Positions 2,694 through 7,824 of a stretch of DNA of 64,000 nt are shown here, piece after piece. A program made the position numbers and the translations under genes. How positions within the stretch are numbered: position 1 is the stretch's first letter; each line of letters begins with the position of its first letter. This DNA comes from Streptomyces sp. NBC_01235 (lineage in GTDB: Bacteria > Actinomycetota > Actinomycetes > Streptomycetales > Streptomycetaceae). The stretch covers positions 4,154,001 to 4,218,000 of the forward strand of contig NZ_CP108513.1 in the NCBI RefSeq assembly GCF_035989285.1, in the 5' to 3' direction. The notes under the pieces were generated by a model, which had not been told where the DNA came from, did not search any database, and was given only the letters and a program-made list of their open reading frames with translations.

Positions 2694-2924
2694 TCACTCG
2701 TCGGCCGGGGACGGGGCGTCGTCCTCGTTGACGTACAGGTTGCCGTTCTGGACGGAGAAGGAGGTGCCGTGTTCCTTTGCCGTGTTCGTCTGCGTAGGGC
2801 CGGCGGGCTGTGGTTCTCCGGCCGCCTCGACCTTGTTGCCGTTGCCGGCCACGACGACACCGGAGGCGTTGCCGCCGATGTGGACGGTGTTCTTGGTGGG
2901 GTGCTTGGGGTGCTTGCGGGGCAT
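2694..2924 (-). CDS. 76-residue Asn/Gly-rich protein with two tail motifs
   Basis: The ATG at 2924 has AGGAG 8 bases upstream and lies 11 bp after the stop of the STAND NTPase gene, so the two are almost certainly co-transcribed. The protein has no hydrophobic segment. It is essentially two short motifs joined by a Pro-rich linker: NTVHIGGNASGVVVAGNGNK near the N-terminus, which matches the N-terminus of the NTPase, and QTNTAKEHGTSFSVQNG near the C-terminus, which matches the end of the small protein at 7393-7824. It ends in an acidic tail. I recognise no named family. The shared motifs suggest an adaptor or assembly partner that links both halves of the block. Confidence 0.75.
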   Translation of the reverse strand: MPRKHPKHPTKNTVHIGGNASGVVVAGNGNKVEAAGEPQPAGPTQTNTAKEHGTSFSVQNGNLYVNEDDAPSPADE

Positions 2925-2935
2925 GGGCCTGGCTC

Positions 2936-5428
2936 CTAGGACTCGCGGGTGAGCGTGAAGGAAGTGCAGGTGGTGCACGACACCGTGTCGTCGACGCCCG
3001 ACGTCATCTGGGTGGTGACTTCGGCGGTGTCACCGTCCGGGTCGAGGGTGATCGTCATCAGTGCCTCGCCGAGGACGGCCGGATCGCAGCTGTCGTCCGC
3101 TTCGTCGTACAGCGGTTGCGTGCTGGTGTAGGTGTCGCCGCTGCCGGTGAACTCCATGGTCTCGGTGCCGCCGCAGGGTTTCTCGCTCGTCACCGTGTAG
3201 CTGCCGTATCCGGACTCGACGAACTCGAGCGTCCCTCCCTCGCTCGAGGACCAGATCCCCGCGAGGCCGGTCTCCGCGGATTCCGTCACCTCCGGTTCCG
3301 TCTCCTCGAGACCGGTGTCCGACGAGTCGTCCGTGTACGGCGGATCAGTGTTGTACAGGTCCGTGTCGAACAGTGGCGTCTGGACGACCGAGCTTCCCGT
3401 GGTCGGCTCGTTCGCGTTCTGGTTCCGGTTCTGGTCCACGGCCACCGCACCGATGACGATCGCGGCGACCACCGCGATCACCTTGAGGGCCGCGGCCGCC
3501 CCGGCCGTCCCGACGGTTCCCGCCGTCCCCGCCGTCCCTGCCGTCCCTGCCGTCCCTGCCGTCCCCGCGGACGTGGCCCCCGCTGCCGACGAATGGGCGA
3601 CGGCGCCGGTCTCCCCCACGCCGGGCGGCGGCGTCGCGAGCGCGTGGTGGGCGGTCGTCACCGGGTCGGCATGGACCGTGGTCCCGTGCGTGGCCGCACT
3701 GTGCGCGGACGTCGGATCCGGAACCGACCCCGACGAACCCGCGCTGTGGGCGGACGTCGGATCGGCGCCCGGTCCCGATCCAGATCCCGGTCCGGACCCC
3801 GGTCCCGACGAAGCCGCGCTGTGCCCAGCCGACGGGTCCGGAGCCGTCGAGCCGCTCACTCCCTGTCCGGCGCCGCCGTCCGTGTGCGGTGAGCCGAGTG
3901 CTGTTCCGCCGTCGGGAGGCGCGGGCTGGGGCTGGGGCGGCACGTACTGCTGGGCCGCCGTCGCGGCGTTCGCGCCGTGCAGGTCCCCCAGCTGGCGCCA
4001 CAGAACCGCCGCTTCCGCCAGCAGCACTCCCGCCAGGACCCGGTTGCCCGTCAGGAAGTTGCGTACGCCGCGCTCGTGCGTGAAGTACGCCGCCGCCTGG
4101 CGGTCGCCCGCGCGCTGGGCCGCGGGCAGGCCCTGGTCGAGGAGGCGGCCCCAGACGCCGAAGCGGAGGGACCGGGCGAGGGCGGGTGAGGCGGCGCGTA
4201 CGACCTGGACGGCGAGGTCCGGCCGGTCCGCGTGCTCGGCGAGCTCGGCGACCATTTCCAGGGCCTTAGCGTGGTCGGCGACCTGGGCCGGGGTCGTCGT
4301 CGGCCGCGTCATCCACTCGGTGAAGTGCCGGCACAGGCGCTCCACCTCCGCGACGGACGGCTCCAGGCCGGCGCCGACGCGCTCCCGCAGCGCCGGGACG
4401 ACGTCCGTCACGACGCGGTAGCCCCGCTCCGTTTCCTGGGCGAGGCCGAGGCCGGCCAGGTCCGCGCACAGGGCCGTCGGATCCGCGGCCTCGCTCAGGG
4501 CGCCGATGTGCACCGGGTCCAGTTCGGCGTCGCCGAGGGTCGCCAGGAGGCGCAGGGCGCGCGTCGACGGGCCGTCGAGCCGGTCGAAGAGCAGGGGGAG
4601 CAGTTCCGCCACCGCGCCGGGCCGGGGCAGCGCCCCCTCGCCCGACGGGTCCAGGCGGGTGAGCGCCGCCGCGCGCAGCAGGAGCAGCGGCCGGCCGGAC
4701 GCGGTCTCCCACAGGGCCTCGGCGGTGCCCTGCTCGTCCGCCGCCGCCACCGGACGGCCCAGCTCGCGGGCCAGCAACTCCATCGCGGCGGCCCGGTCGA
4801 TCCCCTGGAGCGGCAGCGGTACCCCGTCGCCCAGCAGCGACCGGTCGCGGCCGGCGAAGACGAAGGTCGCGTGCGGGGCCGCGTCCATGAGAGTGCGCAG
4901 CTGCTCCGCGGTGTACTCGGCGTTGTCGACGTACACCGTCATCTCGATGCCGGTCATGAGGCGGCGCAGCTCGGGGCGCGACGGGGCGTAGCCGTGGGCG
5001 TCGTAGCAGGCTTCGAACATGTCCTGGGCGACGTCCTCGGGCTCCCGTCCCGTGGCGTCGAGGAACAGCACTCCGGCCGGTCCCGCGGCGAGGGTGTGGG
5101 CCGCGTGGCGCAGGAGCGCGCTCTTGCCGACTCCGGGCGGCCCCCACAACTGCACCGCCCCGCCGCGGGGGTCGGCCAGGGCTTCGGCAAGTGCCGCGAG
5201 TTCCGTCTCCCGGCCCAGCGGGGTGCCCGGTTTCCGGGGCAGCAGCGTGACCTGGTCGCGGCGTACGGGTTCGGGCCGCTCGCCCTCGAGAAGCACGGTC
5301 AGTGTCGACCCGTACTGCGGGCCGACCACCACGTTGTAATTGCCCGCGATCACGGGCGCGTTGGCGTCCCCGCCGACGTCGGCCCGGTTCACGGTGTTCC
5401 CACCGTCGCCTTCGTCCGTGCTCGCCAT
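2936..5428 (-). CDS. STAND-type NTPase with one membrane segment and an outer Cys-containing domain
   Basis: I chose ATG 5428, preceded by GAGGGCGGG; a GTG at 5482 would add 18 residues without a good ribosome binding site. Of 830 residues, 11-35 hold an Asn/Gly motif (NTVNRADVGGDANAPVIAGN). Next come a Walker A P-loop GPPGVGKS (96-103), a Walker B-like MTVYVDNAE and a sensor-like TFVFAGRDR, as in STAND/AAA_16 ATPases, then a helical region. After a long Pro/Gly/Ser-rich linker and an Ala-Gly-Thr repeat, one transmembrane helix (about 647-663) leads to a 165-residue C-terminal domain with four Cys (PCGG, DDSCD, SCTTC). STAND NTPases usually act as switch and scaffold in signalling or defence. 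Here the ATPase would be cytoplasmic and the Cys domain outside, which is unusual. Confidence 0.8.
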   Translation of the reverse strand: MASTDEGDGGNTVNRADVGGDANAPVIAGNYNVVVGPQYGSTLTVLLEGERPEPVRRDQVTLLPRKPGTPLGRETELAALAEALADPRGGAVQLWGPPGVGKSALLRHAAHTLAAGPAGVLFLDATGREPEDVAQDMFEACYDAHGYAPSRPELRRLMTGIEMTVYVDNAEYTAEQLRTLMDAAPHATFVFAGRDRSLLGDGVPLPLQGIDRAAAMELLARELGRPVAAADEQGTAEALWETASGRPLLLLRAAALTRLDPSGEGALPRPGAVAELLPLLFDRLDGPSTRALRLLATLGDAELDPVHIGALSEAADPTALCADLAGLGLAQETERGYRVVTDVVPALRERVGAGLEPSVAEVERLCRHFTEWMTRPTTTPAQVADHAKALEMVAELAEHADRPDLAVQVVRAASPALARSLRFGVWGRLLDQGLPAAQRAGDRQAAAYFTHERGVRNFLTGNRVLAGVLLAEAAVLWRQLGDLHGANAATAAQQYVPPQPQPAPPDGGTALGSPHTDGGAGQGVSGSTAPDPSAGHSAASSGPGSGPGSGSGPGADPTSAHSAGSSGSVPDPTSAHSAATHGTTVHADPVTTAHHALATPPPGVGETGAVAHSSAAGATSAGTAGTAGTAGTAGTAGTVGTAGAAAALKVIAVVAAIVIGAVAVDQNRNQNANEPTTGSSVVQTPLFDTDLYNTDPPYTDDSSDTGLEETEPEVTESAETGLAGIWSSSEGGTLEFVESGYGSYTVTSEKPCGGTETMEFTGSGDTYTSTQPLYDEADDSCDPAVLGEALMTITLDPDGDTAEVTTQMTSGVDDTVSCTTCTSFTLTRES

Positions 5429-5506
5429 GGCCACCCGCCCTCGTGTTCGTACCCGGTCCGTCCAGGCGGTCACGTTAGCCACGGGCGCTCACGGCACCCC
5501 CGTCAA

Positions 5507-5534
5507 ATTATGGTTTCGTGTCGGGCCCCTCCAA
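5507..5534 (-). promoter_or_regulatory. Candidate promoter of the STAND NTPase gene
   Basis: On the minus strand TTGGAG and CATAAT are separated by 16 bp, a vegetative-type promoter with a near-perfect -10. Transcription would start about 70 bp before the ATG at 5428. An inverted repeat TTCGA-GAAT-TCGAA lies further upstream at 5588-5601, and three copies of CTCACCGATC follow the end of the Crp-like gene. The promoter implies the NTPase can be expressed separately from the upstream regulator gene. Confidence 0.4.
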
Positions 5535-5637
5535 TTTCGCCACCCGCCGCACACAAGTGGACTCAACTCCCTTGAGGCAAACGGAAGTTCGAGAATTCGA
5601 AAGTTCACCGATCACGCTCGCCGCTCACCGATCGCGC

Positions 5638-6366
5638 TCACCGATCGCCGAAGGCGATGTCGCTCAGCCGGGAGAGGCTGTCCACGCGGATGGAGCGGTA
5701 GCCCGTGGTGACCGCTCCCAGGTCCCGGAACCGGCGCAGGGCCTTCTGCACGCTGGGCTCCGACGCGGCTGCCAGACCGGCGAGTTCGGGCTGGGTGATC
5801 GGCCAGCGGATCACGGCGCCCTCGCCGGCCCGCTCCCCGTACGTCATCACGAGATGGTGCAGCACTCGGGCCAGCCGCGTGGCCGCGTCGCAGCCGGTGA
5901 AGTTGACGCGGTGGGTGGTCGCGGAGCGCAGCTTGGCCACGACGGTCCGGTTGACGGCGTGGGAGATCCGGGGCTCGTCCCGGGTGCAGGCGAGGAAGTC
6001 CGCCCGGGTCACGCTCTGCGCGAGGACCGGCCCGCAGGTGGTCACCGTGGCCGAGCGGGGCTGTCCGTCCACCGCGGCGAACTCGCCGACCACGTCCCCG
6101 CCCATCCGGACGGCCAACAGGGCGTCGCGGTCGTCGTCGGCGTGCCCGGTGACCTTGACCAGGCCGTCGAGCAGGATCAGCACGAAGTCCGTCCGGTCCG
6201 CCTCCCGCATGAGCACCTTGTCGGGCGGGTAGCGCACCCGCGTCCCCAGGGCGAGCAGCAGGTCCCGGTCGGCCGGGCCCAGGCCTCCGAGCAGGCTCGA
6301 CGGCGGCCAGTCCCGCACCTCACCCGGCCGCCGCCCGTTCGCCTCGCGGCGCGCGTCGCCGTCCAT
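5638..6366 (-). CDS. Crp/Fnr-family transcription regulator
   Basis: The 242-residue protein has a cyclic-nucleotide-binding beta-barrel in its first half (YPPDKVLMREADRTDFVLIL, then GGDVVGEFAAVDGQPRSATV, the usual phosphate-binding cassette with GE and R-S-A) and a helix-turn-helix near the end (WPITQPELAGLAAASEPSVQ). The binding cassette keeps the Glu, Arg and small residues that contact cyclic nucleotide phosphate in Crp. The ATG is preceded by GAGAGGGG. It is divergent from a cyclase-like gene and upstream, on the same strand, of the STAND NTPase. The obvious inference is that it senses a nucleotide made by, or related to, the neighbouring cyclase-like protein, and binds the 18-bp repeats in the shared promoter region. 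Confidence 0.85.
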   Translation of the reverse strand: MDGDARREANGRRPGEVRDWPPSSLLGGLGPADRDLLLALGTRVRYPPDKVLMREADRTDFVLILLDGLVKVTGHADDDRDALLAVRMGGDVVGEFAAVDGQPRSATVTTCGPVLAQSVTRADFLACTRDEPRISHAVNRTVVAKLRSATTHRVNFTGCDAATRLARVLHHLVMTYGERAGEGAVIRWPITQPELAGLAAASEPSVQKALRRFRDLGAVTTGYRSIRVDSLSRLSDIAFGDR

Positions 6367-6429
6367 GGCCCCACCCCTCTCCCAAGGGATCGATCACACC
6401 ACCCGGACTCAGTGTGCGCCCCGAACCCC

Positions 6430-6483
6430 GGTTTCCTACGCGACCCGGTATTCCTACGAGACCCTGTATTCCTACGAGTTGTT
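6430..6483. promoter_or_regulatory. Three 18-bp direct repeats between the Crp-like and cyclase-like genes
   Basis: The core TTCCTACG recurs at 6433, 6451 and 6469, exactly 18 bp apart, inside three 18-bp units; units 1 and 2 continue similarly (CGACCCG and AGACCCT). They lie about 110 bp before the cyclase-like start and 65 bp before the Crp-like start, the right place for an operator controlling both. The same bases read as FLRDPVFLRDPVFLR in one frame, but the good ribosome binding site at 6592 argues against translation here. Confidence 0.6.
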
Positions 6484-6591
6484 CGTGCCGCACCAGGAGA
6501 ACAGTGGACACCGGGGGACGGGACGGCGCGGGCGCGCACACCCGCGTTCCGCGCCGTGCCGCACCCCGCCGCCGATCCGGAGAAGGGCCGC

Positions 6592-7368
6592 ATGGAAGCA
6601 CAGTGGGAGTACCGGGCCGTACTGGCCGTGGACATCGAGAAGTCGTCGGGGCGGGGGAACGTGGCACTGCTGCGCAACCGCGAGGCGCTGCGGACGCTGC
6701 TCCGCGAGGCGTTCCGTCGCAGCGGCGTCGACTGGGAGCGTTGCGTGCGGGCCGATCTGGGCGACGGTCTGCGCGTGACGGCACCGGCGGGGACGCCGAA
6801 GGCGCGTCTGGTCCACCCCCTCGTCCAGGAGCTCGCCGGCCTGCTGCGCGACCACAACAGCGCCCAGGACGACCGCGCGACCCGGATCCGGGTCCGCGTC
6901 GCGCTCCACGCCGGGGAGGTCTCCCTCTCGCCGGACGGCGAGGTCGCGGGCAGCCCGCTGGAGATCCTGGCTCGCCTGCTCGACGCGCCTGCCGCACGCG
7001 CGGCCCTTGCCCGGGCTCCGCGGACCGTGCCCGTGTCACTGCTGCTGTCGCAGCACGTCCACGACGAGACGGTACGACACGGCTATTCGGGCATCGATCC
7101 GGCCGCCTTCCGCAAGGTCGAGGTCAAGGTGAAGGAGTTCACCGCCGCCGCGTGGCTGCACACCCCCGGCTGGCTGCCGCCGGACGAGGCGGAGAAAGCG
7201 GAGAAAGCGGAGAAGGCGGCGGAGCCGGGGGACGACGTGGCCGCGGCAGGCCGGCGTGACGGGTCGTCTCAGGGCGCCTCGAAGCAGGTCAACAAGGCGT
7301 CGAGGAAGGGTGTCGTCTACGCCGCCCAGAACGGCGACCAGCACATCCGCATCACCGGAAAGCGATGA
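6592..7368 (+). CDS. Class III nucleotidyl cyclase-like protein with a C-terminal tail motif
   Basis: ATG 6592 is preceded by GGAGAAGG. The 258-residue protein shows the class III cyclase landmarks in order: first metal Asp in VLAVDIEKSS (D14), second metal Asp in ADLGDG (D58), the strand RVRVALHAGEV (101-110), and the helix GSPLEILARLL (120-130). In that helix the Arg of the catalytic Asn-x3-Arg pair is kept (R128), but the Asn position is Glu (E124), so the reaction may be altered or lost. A Lys/Glu repeat (EKAEKAEKAAE) leads to a tail KQVNKASRKGVVYAAQNGDQ that resembles those of two small proteins in this block. It is followed after 24 bp by the gene at 7393. Substrate and product are unknown. 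Confidence 0.7.
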   Translation: MEAQWEYRAVLAVDIEKSSGRGNVALLRNREALRTLLREAFRRSGVDWERCVRADLGDGLRVTAPAGTPKARLVHPLVQELAGLLRDHNSAQDDRATRIRVRVALHAGEVSLSPDGEVAGSPLEILARLLDAPAARAALARAPRTVPVSLLLSQHVHDETVRHGYSGIDPAAFRKVEVKVKEFTAAAWLHTPGWLPPDEAEKAEKAEKAAEPGDDVAAAGRRDGSSQGASKQVNKASRKGVVYAAQNGDQHIRITGKR

Positions 7369-7392
7369 GGGAGCGTCCATGGAGGAGTGCCC

Positions 7393-7824
7393 GTGAACGA
7401 CGAACTGGCCGTCCTGGCCCAGGCGGGGGCCGCCGCTCTGGTCACGGCGATGGCGACGGACATGTGGCTGGAGACGAGGGACACGGTCGTCGGCCTGTTC
7501 CGGCGCGCCGACCGCGACGGCGGCCATGACCACGGCGCCGGACTGGAGGGCCGGCTCGACGGCAACGCCGCACTCGTGCAGGACTCCGCCACCCCCGACG
7601 ACGTACGGCGGGCCCTGTTCGGCTACTGGACGCTGGAGTTGGCAGCGCTGCTGCGGCGCGACCCCTCCTGCGGCGAGCCCCTCGCCCGCCTCGCGTCCGG
7701 CGTCGACGCCACCCTGCTGAACGGGCTCCGGGCGAACGCGTCTGGACAGACGAACACGGCCCGGGACTCCGGCACCGTGTTCGCCGTCCAGTACGGGACC
7801 CAGCACGCCGACCGGCGACGGTGA
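7393..7824 (+). CDS. 143-residue helical protein with QTNTA tail motif
   Basis: GTG 7393 is preceded by GGAGGA with a 6-base spacer, which favours it over GTG 7387. It follows the cyclase-like gene by 24 bp and is surely in its operon. The first 115 residues are helical (ELAVLAQAGAAALVTAMATDMW, then DVRRALFGYWTLELAALLRRD). The C-terminus is QTNTARDSGTVFAVQYG, close to the end of the 76-residue protein at 2694-2924 and to the cyclase-like tail. I recognise the general type (small helical proteins beside actinobacterial NTPase conflict genes) but no named family. A role as adaptor or regulator of the cyclase-like protein is inference. Confidence 0.7.
   Translation: MNDELAVLAQAGAAALVTAMATDMWLETRDTVVGLFRRADRDGGHDHGAGLEGRLDGNAALVQDSATPDDVRRALFGYWTLELAALLRRDPSCGEPLARLASGVDATLLNGLRANASGQTNTARDSGTVFAVQYGTQHADRRR

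Follow-up and report, generated by a model that had tools for sequence, protein, structure and literature searches.

How do a Crp-type regulator, a cyclase-like protein, a membrane NTPase and two small proteins, encoded side by side, act on one another, and which of them acts first? The question was raised by a five-gene block of Streptomyces sp. NBC_01235 (NZ_CP108513.1), of which a stretch of 64,000 nucleotides, the window, was analyzed; all coordinates given for the block are positions in this window. Three of the genes lie on the minus strand and encode a 76-residue protein (2694..2924), an 830-residue NTPase (2936..5428) and a 242-residue Crp/Fnr-type regulator (5638..6366). The other two lie on the plus strand and encode a 258-residue protein with a predicted class III cyclase fold (6592..7368) and a 145-residue protein (7387..7824). 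All five open reading frames were confirmed where the original prediction had placed them; the last had been listed there with 143 residues, the difference lying in the choice of start. The original prediction had also described the two small proteins as tail-motif proteins. The motifs proved real, but they are of two distinct types, here called A and B, a distinction which it had missed. We propose that the block is probably a chain that leads from a receptor through a relay adaptor to a cyclase and a small effector. As judged from the sequences, a joint function of these genes and a bridging role of the 76-residue protein are very likely.

The 76-residue protein, supported by its open reading frame and by gene calling, is the putative adaptor. 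It carries motif A (residues 12-34; 2823..2891, minus strand; NTVHIGGNASGVVVAGNGNKVEA) and, after a short linker, motif B (residues 45-66; 2727..2792, minus strand; QTNTAKEHGTSFSVQNGNLYV). The former was located by alignment and by its pairing with the NTPase head, and the latter by alignment, by tail pairing and by an independent profile. Motif A was found again at the N-terminus of the NTPase (residues 11-36; 5321..5398, minus strand; NTVNRADVGGDANAPVIAGNYNVVVG) by comparison, pairing and an independent profile. Motif B was found by alignment and pairing in the tails of the cyclase-fold protein (residues 232-254; 7285..7353, plus strand; NKASRKGVVYAAQNGDQHI) and of the 145-residue protein (residues 121-140; 7747..7806, plus strand; NTARDSGTVFAVQYGTQH). 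The order A-linker-B was kept in nine aligned adaptors. An adaptor profile search returned 238 database clusters, and A preceded B in all of the 120 listed, a count that is partly built in because the profile covered both halves. None of these 120 had a precomputed Pfam domain, and nearly all of those with a source name were called 'hypothetical protein'. A sequence search of the PDB with the adaptor, the cyclase-fold protein and the 145-residue protein gave no useful match.

The neighborhood of these genes was then compared at 62 loci, obtained by scanning named genomes with a profile of cyclase orthologues. The loci span ten actinobacterial genera (Streptomyces, Kitasatospora, Streptacidiphilus, Actinacidiphila, Wenjunlia, Nocardia, Kutzneria, Catenulispora, Actinomadura and Streptomonospora) and two metagenome bins. 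By our thresholds all five genes were present at 47 of the 62 loci; taken singly, the adaptor was found at 52, the NTPase at 58 (including L124, which has a fragment only), the regulator at 58 and the 145-residue protein at 54. Among the 15 incomplete loci, a contig ends within or next to the block at L113, L114, L118, L140 and L144. The co-occurrence, a check that the original prediction had itself proposed, upheld its view of the five genes as a unit. Relatives scattered among unrelated neighbors, which it had named as the opposite outcome, were not seen for the orthologous family, although distant relatives of the cyclase do occur in other settings. In a genus sample of 295 genomes, a close cyclase orthologue (E<1e-48) was present in nine, our own included, the next best match being 3e-28, and some relative of the cyclase (E<=1e-5) in 171. 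The layout was repeated in the eight other close-orthologue genomes, G037 alone being without the 145-residue gene. In a class-wide sample, seven of 246 genomes matched at E<=1e-25, again including our own, the remainder at 3.6e-31 or weaker. These results suggest that the five genes are a conserved functional unit, and the patchy presence of the close orthologue in the genus suggests an accessory locus. At L124 (7529-7729) the B half of the adaptor is left alone, with the cyclase and 145-residue genes kept.

Local alignment scores of the motif-bearing pieces were compared with those of 500 composition-preserving shuffles at all 47 five-gene loci. The A half of the adaptor and the NTPase head gave a median score of 63, versus 25.6 for shuffled sequences, and no shuffle reached the score at 37 loci. 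The B half gave medians of 45 versus 18.4 with the cyclase tail (no shuffle at 33 loci) and of 57 versus 19.2 with the tail of the 145-residue protein (46 loci), and the two tails matched each other at the same stringency at 36 loci. The crossed pairs, A with the cyclase tail, A with the 145-residue tail and B with the NTPase head, reached it at none of the 47, and the NTPase head with the cyclase tail at one. When up to 5 of 500 shuffles were allowed, A-A passed at 39, B-cyclase at 44 and B-145-residue at 46 loci, and the crossed pairs at 1, 0, 2 and 3. Since the motifs pair by way of the adaptor, the NTPase is placed upstream, as a putative receptor, and the cyclase and the 145-residue protein downstream. 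The original prediction had made the NTPase a nucleotide-controlled effector, of which we saw no sign.

Profiles made independently of these pieces were searched against the 11,604 open reading frames of the 62 loci. A B profile built from 15 tails of 145-residue-like proteins (L075-L092) matched, at E<=0.1, 34 adaptors, 21 cyclases, 42 members of the 145-residue family and six others, which belong to divergent loci and by eye are adaptor-, partner- or 145-residue-like proteins with B-type motifs. With an A profile built from six heads of two-gene loci, every match at E<=0.1 was to an NTPase (38) or an adaptor (18); E<=1 added one cyclase and three others. The pairing of each adaptor with its own receptor was compared with permuted pairs at 39 loci (36 of the 47 plus L130, L140 and L142). 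Own pairs averaged 64.2 versus 47.3 for permuted ones (standard deviation 1.84; 0 of 5000 permutations).

Natural variants of the block allowed the wiring to be dissected further. At the Nocardia locus L130 no NTPase orthologue was found, and a 588-residue protein with predicted membrane helices, for which Pfam gave no match above cut-off, stands in its place. This protein ends in NNGIQNFNSTVSGPQAAGQNATAAHQV, and the first half of the adaptor there is NYGIQNFNSQISGPQAAGPNATAAYSV; that half scored 107 with its own 588-residue protein versus 44 with the best other receptor, and the second half is still B. The neighbor of L130 in the cyclase tree, L143 (support 84/88), carries the standard gene set. 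At the Catenulispora loci L140 and L142, the head of a NACHT-type receptor pairs with an adaptor half that is altered, at a score reached by none of 1000 shuffles at either locus. The NACHT match of the L142 receptor is 38 bits (cut-off 26.7), and the adaptor of the L142 type had only four database matches, itself counted. The evidence is weaker for L149 and L151, where the scores were 56 and 64 with the own receptor and 49 and 42 with the best unrelated one. It thus appears from these sequences that receptors were replaced, that the A half of the adaptor was altered to match and that B was retained.

The adaptor itself is bypassed at L141, L145 and L153. The cyclase carries motif A at its N-terminus there, matching the NTPase of its own locus (scores 50, 73 and 70; 0 of 1000 shuffles each); neither an adaptor nor a 145-residue gene was found, and by eye the cyclase end is without B. 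The three loci may have a single common origin. For the L141 cyclase, 120 relatives were listed: 110 had B at the C-terminus only, four had A at the N-terminus only, six had neither and none had both. Two of the four A-headed cyclases are the L141 and L145 proteins, and the A-headed cyclase P0137 has an adaptor-like head in which A is followed by a B-like stretch. In the six that were negative by profile, inspection by eye showed an A-like end in P0167, P0204, P0212 and P0237, a B-like tail, overlooked by the profile, in P0230 and a different tail in P0222. At L144 one open reading frame matches both the cyclase profile (5.8e-94) and the 145-residue profile (8.1e-32) and has a single B tail at its end. 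A direct pairing of the cyclase tail with the head of the protein that follows was seen at the Kutzneria locus L137 (score 65; 0 of 1000 shuffles). Finally, an A-headed NTPase without such a cyclase lies beside an A-headed protein of 137-153 residues at L100 (6938-10041), L102 (6764-9429), L104 (7799-10384) and L105 (5926-8924); these two-gene A pairings were equaled by 0, 1, 0 and 1 of 1000 shuffles, respectively.

The properties of the NTPase are consistent with a receptor at the membrane. Its gene, supported by the AAA_16 match and by orthologues, has an alternative GTG start at 5482. Pfam placed AAA_16 over the P-loop part (5048..5221, minus strand) at 36 bits (cut-off 32.6), and hydropathy predicted a single transmembrane helix (residues 646-664; 3437..3493, minus strand). 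The membrane NTPase of the original prediction was borne out in these two respects. As to its assignment to the STAND class, AAA_16 passes its cut-off and the model nSTAND_NTPase5 reached 21.3 bits, below its cut-off of 34. The helix is followed by 166 residues (2939..3436, minus strand; delimited by hydropathy and comparison) that end in CxxC..TR and are probably an extracytoplasmic sensor. A predicted membrane helix lies behind the NTPase core in 53 of 54 full-length NTPases. The CxxC..TR ending was present in 22 of the 54 and the rest differ, giving at least two kinds of C-terminal end, as expected of an outward sensor with changing ligands.

Pfam did not detect a cyclase domain in the 258-residue protein, but the predicted structure confirmed the class III fold that the original prediction had proposed. 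The class III metal-binding residues D14 and D58, assigned this role by alignment to the class pattern, were present in 51 of 51 orthologues, as was R128. In the regulator, Pfam gave cNMP_binding at 53.9 bits (cut-off 27.5) and HTH_Crp_2 at 43.5 bits (cut-off 27), and its phosphate-binding cassette kept Glu and Arg in 58 of the 59 aligned rows (the remaining row has a gap) and Ser in 38. Given the fold, the metal-binding Asp residues and the largely kept cassette, the nucleotide second-messenger link of the original prediction is plausible, and an active cyclase that feeds the Crp regulator is slightly favored on these sequence features. Reading nucleotide specificity from one Crp residue was abandoned: the window has T there, its nearest relative (L111) has N, and N is also the aligned residue of a mycobacterial Crp chain. 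The shared promoter region between the divergent genes (6367..6591) contains an 18-bp unit repeated 2.9 times (6427-6478). A CGTA-N4-TACG dyad occurred in 9 of 56 such regions, versus a mean of 0.1 after shuffling and none in cyclase coding controls; the classic TGTGA-N6-TCACA site occurred in none of the 56. These repeats and dyads are no more than suggestive of a regulator site. An Rfam search gave nothing useful. Among distant relatives of the cyclase (L041, L042-L072), many of those listed have a large gene and a gene for Crp as neighbors and carry other Gly-rich tails, such as GVSGGHVSGDVIMG, which may be further pairing codes.

The 145-residue protein is a candidate effector. Its AlphaFold model has five helices and a disordered tail, and a fold search with this model gave no match at E<=0.001 in the PDB, which covers only the families listed there. 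The domain family matched 132 of the 295 genus genomes (E<=0.001); many matches span only about residues 2-106, and the tails vary. Twenty loci of B-tailed relatives were fetched, and in 13 of the 17 where such a relative was called, it lay directly beside a gene for 451-1276 residues. These large neighbors are NLR-like by eye; the two that were tested matched TPR, and their matches to NTPase stayed below cut-off. The 145-residue protein is thus BELL-like in setting only. At L075-L088, L091 and L092 the NLR-like neighbors share the head GFGYGxIGADxHVF, which gave no score match to the adjoining B tail. One of these loci, L088, is in our own genome (G000:C1:9808000-9823000) and has a second B-tailed 145-residue-like gene beside the gene of a 955-residue TPR protein, so that cross-talk with the system in the window is conceivable.

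Together, these data lead us to propose the following mechanism. The C-terminal part of the NTPase would sense a signal outside the membrane, and the cytoplasmic NTPase domains would cluster. Their A motifs, which pair by sequence with that of the adaptor, would then nucleate an ordered, probably amyloid-like assembly with it. The B motifs concentrated in this way would recruit or template the B tails of the cyclase and of the 145-residue protein. Brought together, the cyclase would be switched on and form a cyclic nucleotide; the Crp regulator would bind it and reset transcription, possibly also from its own promoter region, and the 145-residue protein would serve as an effector of the membrane-acting or cell-death type. 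By way of the adaptor, one effector set could serve different receptors. Amyloid-type templating by A and B is fairly likely by analogy. The full picture is tentative, its chances lying close to even: an orthogonal, prion-like two-motif relay of Actinobacteria with exchangeable receptors, in which an outward transmembrane NLR-like receptor leads to cyclic nucleotide and transcription and not only to cell death. The outcome may be defense or cell death.

Several results weigh against this proposal. The A test fell short of 0 of 500 at 10 of the 47 loci. Eight failed at more than 5 of 500, of which six (L112, L129, L149, L151, L152 and L154) had wrongly cut pieces and were still counted as failures, and L119 and L162 failed with correctly cut ones. 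The own receptor was the single best match at just 5 of the 39 loci, because many A motifs are alike. When B tails were compared with the heads of neighboring proteins at 13 unrelated loci, one matched (L090: 61; 0 of 1000), and at the other twelve 41 to 949 of 1000 shuffles scored as high. Since these tail-head tests fail, B appears as a pairing code beyond the five-gene system at L090 and L137 only, and its tie to known signalosomes seems weaker than that of A. Pfam gave no RHIM match in the nine adaptors. Four of the 62 loci (L124, L145, L153 and L140, the last at a contig end) yielded no Crp by our threshold, so that the regulator may not be obligatory, and CGTA-N4-TACG is missing from the promoter region of the window itself, which leaves the operator evidence patchy. 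Class III cyclases have a canonical transition-state Asn and work as dimers; E124 occupies the Asn place in 48 of 51 orthologues, so that activity may be lost or altered. In 32 distant relatives this place is N in 18, V in 10, E in two and D in two.

These points bear differently on the explanations that compete with the relay. The same wiring could be made by ordinary homotypic contacts, such as beta-strand pairing or a small beta-solenoid, with the adaptor as a simple scaffold. The pairing evidence suits any specific homotypic contact, no RHIM match was obtained, and it is mainly in layout that the block is like BELL/NLR pairs, with a match by score at 1 of 13 loci. Motif A nevertheless resembles the RHIM core by eye. 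An NLR-like protein with an N-terminal motif and a helical protein with a C-terminal one are, moreover, the setting of the amyloid BASS/BELL pairs (available part of PMC7889193), and we consider ordinary contacts unlikely. The loss of the Asn bears instead on the cyclase, which may be a dead, nucleotide-binding or dimerizing scaffold, with Crp answering another nucleotide and the 145-residue protein as sole effector. Cyclase domains that are inactive have been reported from conflict systems (PMC7159879, Kaur et al. 2020), and L145 and L153 yielded no Crp. This explanation is rather doubtful, however, since both metal-binding Asp residues and R128 are invariant, the three bypass loci retain the cyclase and tag it with A where no 145-residue gene was found, and L148 retains the cyclase with the 145-residue gene missing. 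Control of the NTPase as an effector by the cyclase product through Crp, the model of the original prediction, would gain from the arrangement of the Crp, NTPase and adaptor genes on one strand, where Crp could control them. It is nonetheless quite improbable, because pairing through the adaptor sets the NTPase head upstream of both the cyclase and the 145-residue protein, and because the receptor is the exchanged part and its C-terminal end varies by locus, as expected of a sensor. That Gly/Asn/Val-rich low-complexity tails are alike by chance, with no joint function, might be thought of motifs so short and simple in composition; it is hardly credible in view of the composition-preserving shuffles and crossed pairs, of profiles without clearly unrelated matches at E<=0.1 and of the matched changes in receptor swaps.

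The relay was compared with known systems. Animal RHIM adaptors, such as TRIF, ZBP1 and the RIPK1/RIPK3 pair, offer an analogy in that they pass a signal on by short homotypic motifs; they use a single motif type alongside other domains, whereas the 76-residue protein combines two distinct motifs. BASS/BELL pairs consist of an NLR-type NTPase whose N-terminus carries a motif and of a small helical partner that carries one at its C-terminus (PMC7889193 and PMC8086366, in the parts available). The NTPase of the window, NLR-type by its AAA_16 match and layout, and the 145-residue protein carry short motifs at the same ends. Here, in contrast, receptor and effector have unlike motifs that give no match to each other, and the link between them is a third protein with one motif of each kind; the class III cyclase is an additional client, and the receptor has a predicted membrane helix. 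Because direct motif identity between receptor and effector fails (1 of 47), the block is set apart from two-gene signalosomes. Our best reading, by analogy, likens it to an NLR-amyloid signalosome in which a two-motif adaptor is interposed and a second-messenger enzyme takes part. Pycsar combines the PycC cyclase, which forms dimers, with a cyclic nucleotide-binding effector (available part of PMC11224242), and the block shares with it a single-domain class III cyclase fold and a neighboring cyclic nucleotide-binding protein. Plain Pycsar was ruled out by the type of partner, which has cNMP_binding and HTH_Crp_2 and is a DNA-binding regulator instead of a transmembrane or TIR effector; a receptor and an adaptor are also added. 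PADLOC matches were rejected, since that of the regulator covered the cyclic nucleotide-binding part and the others were weak. Conflict systems of multicellular bacteria, including MoxR-vWA, combine STAND NTPases with domains of cyclic nucleotide cyclases, and CRP-like regulators are linked to them (PMC7159879, in part). The block shares the cyclase, NTPase and CRP-like parts; Pfam showed no vWA or MoxR among its five proteins. By eye, PP2C-, kinase- and vWA-like genes, a TerY-P-type set, adjoin the block at L039 (9152-12168), L040 (4777-7735) and L149 (9307-12593). The words 'amyloid' and 'RHIM' do not occur in the main text of PMC7159879. We found no published account of a two-motif adaptor or of a cyclase with such a tail, including in the available parts of PMC12261475, PMC8086366, PMC7889193, PMC7159879, PMC8195603, PMC7885112 and PMC11224242.

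The surroundings of the block did not agree with the broken flanking genes of the original prediction. The glycosyltransferase gene on the 5' side and the NUDIX gene on the 3' side are both full-length, and a 352-residue gene further 5' merely begins ahead of the window and is not broken. An insertion argued from broken flanks is ruled out by these intact genes. Relatives of the 352-residue gene and of the 872-residue gene preceding it also lie 5' of the block at L034 (by eye). In the window the glycosyltransferase gene (1360-2562) separates the 352-residue gene from the block, while at L034 a 363-residue relative adjoins the adaptor directly (by eye). The unit TGGTGCAGT is repeated 5.7 times at 1270-1320, just short of the end of the glycosyltransferase gene and within a stretch (693-1359) that has no clear gene.

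Receptor swaps, adaptor bypass and gene fusions provide natural controls for the proposed relay, and they make the order of the chain and its specificity directly testable. A cyclic nucleotide and a Crp target are suggested as measurable output. The proposal also offers a function for a widespread adaptor family of 238 clusters. If it is true, the adaptor chains short homotypic motifs and so would rewire receptors to effectors.

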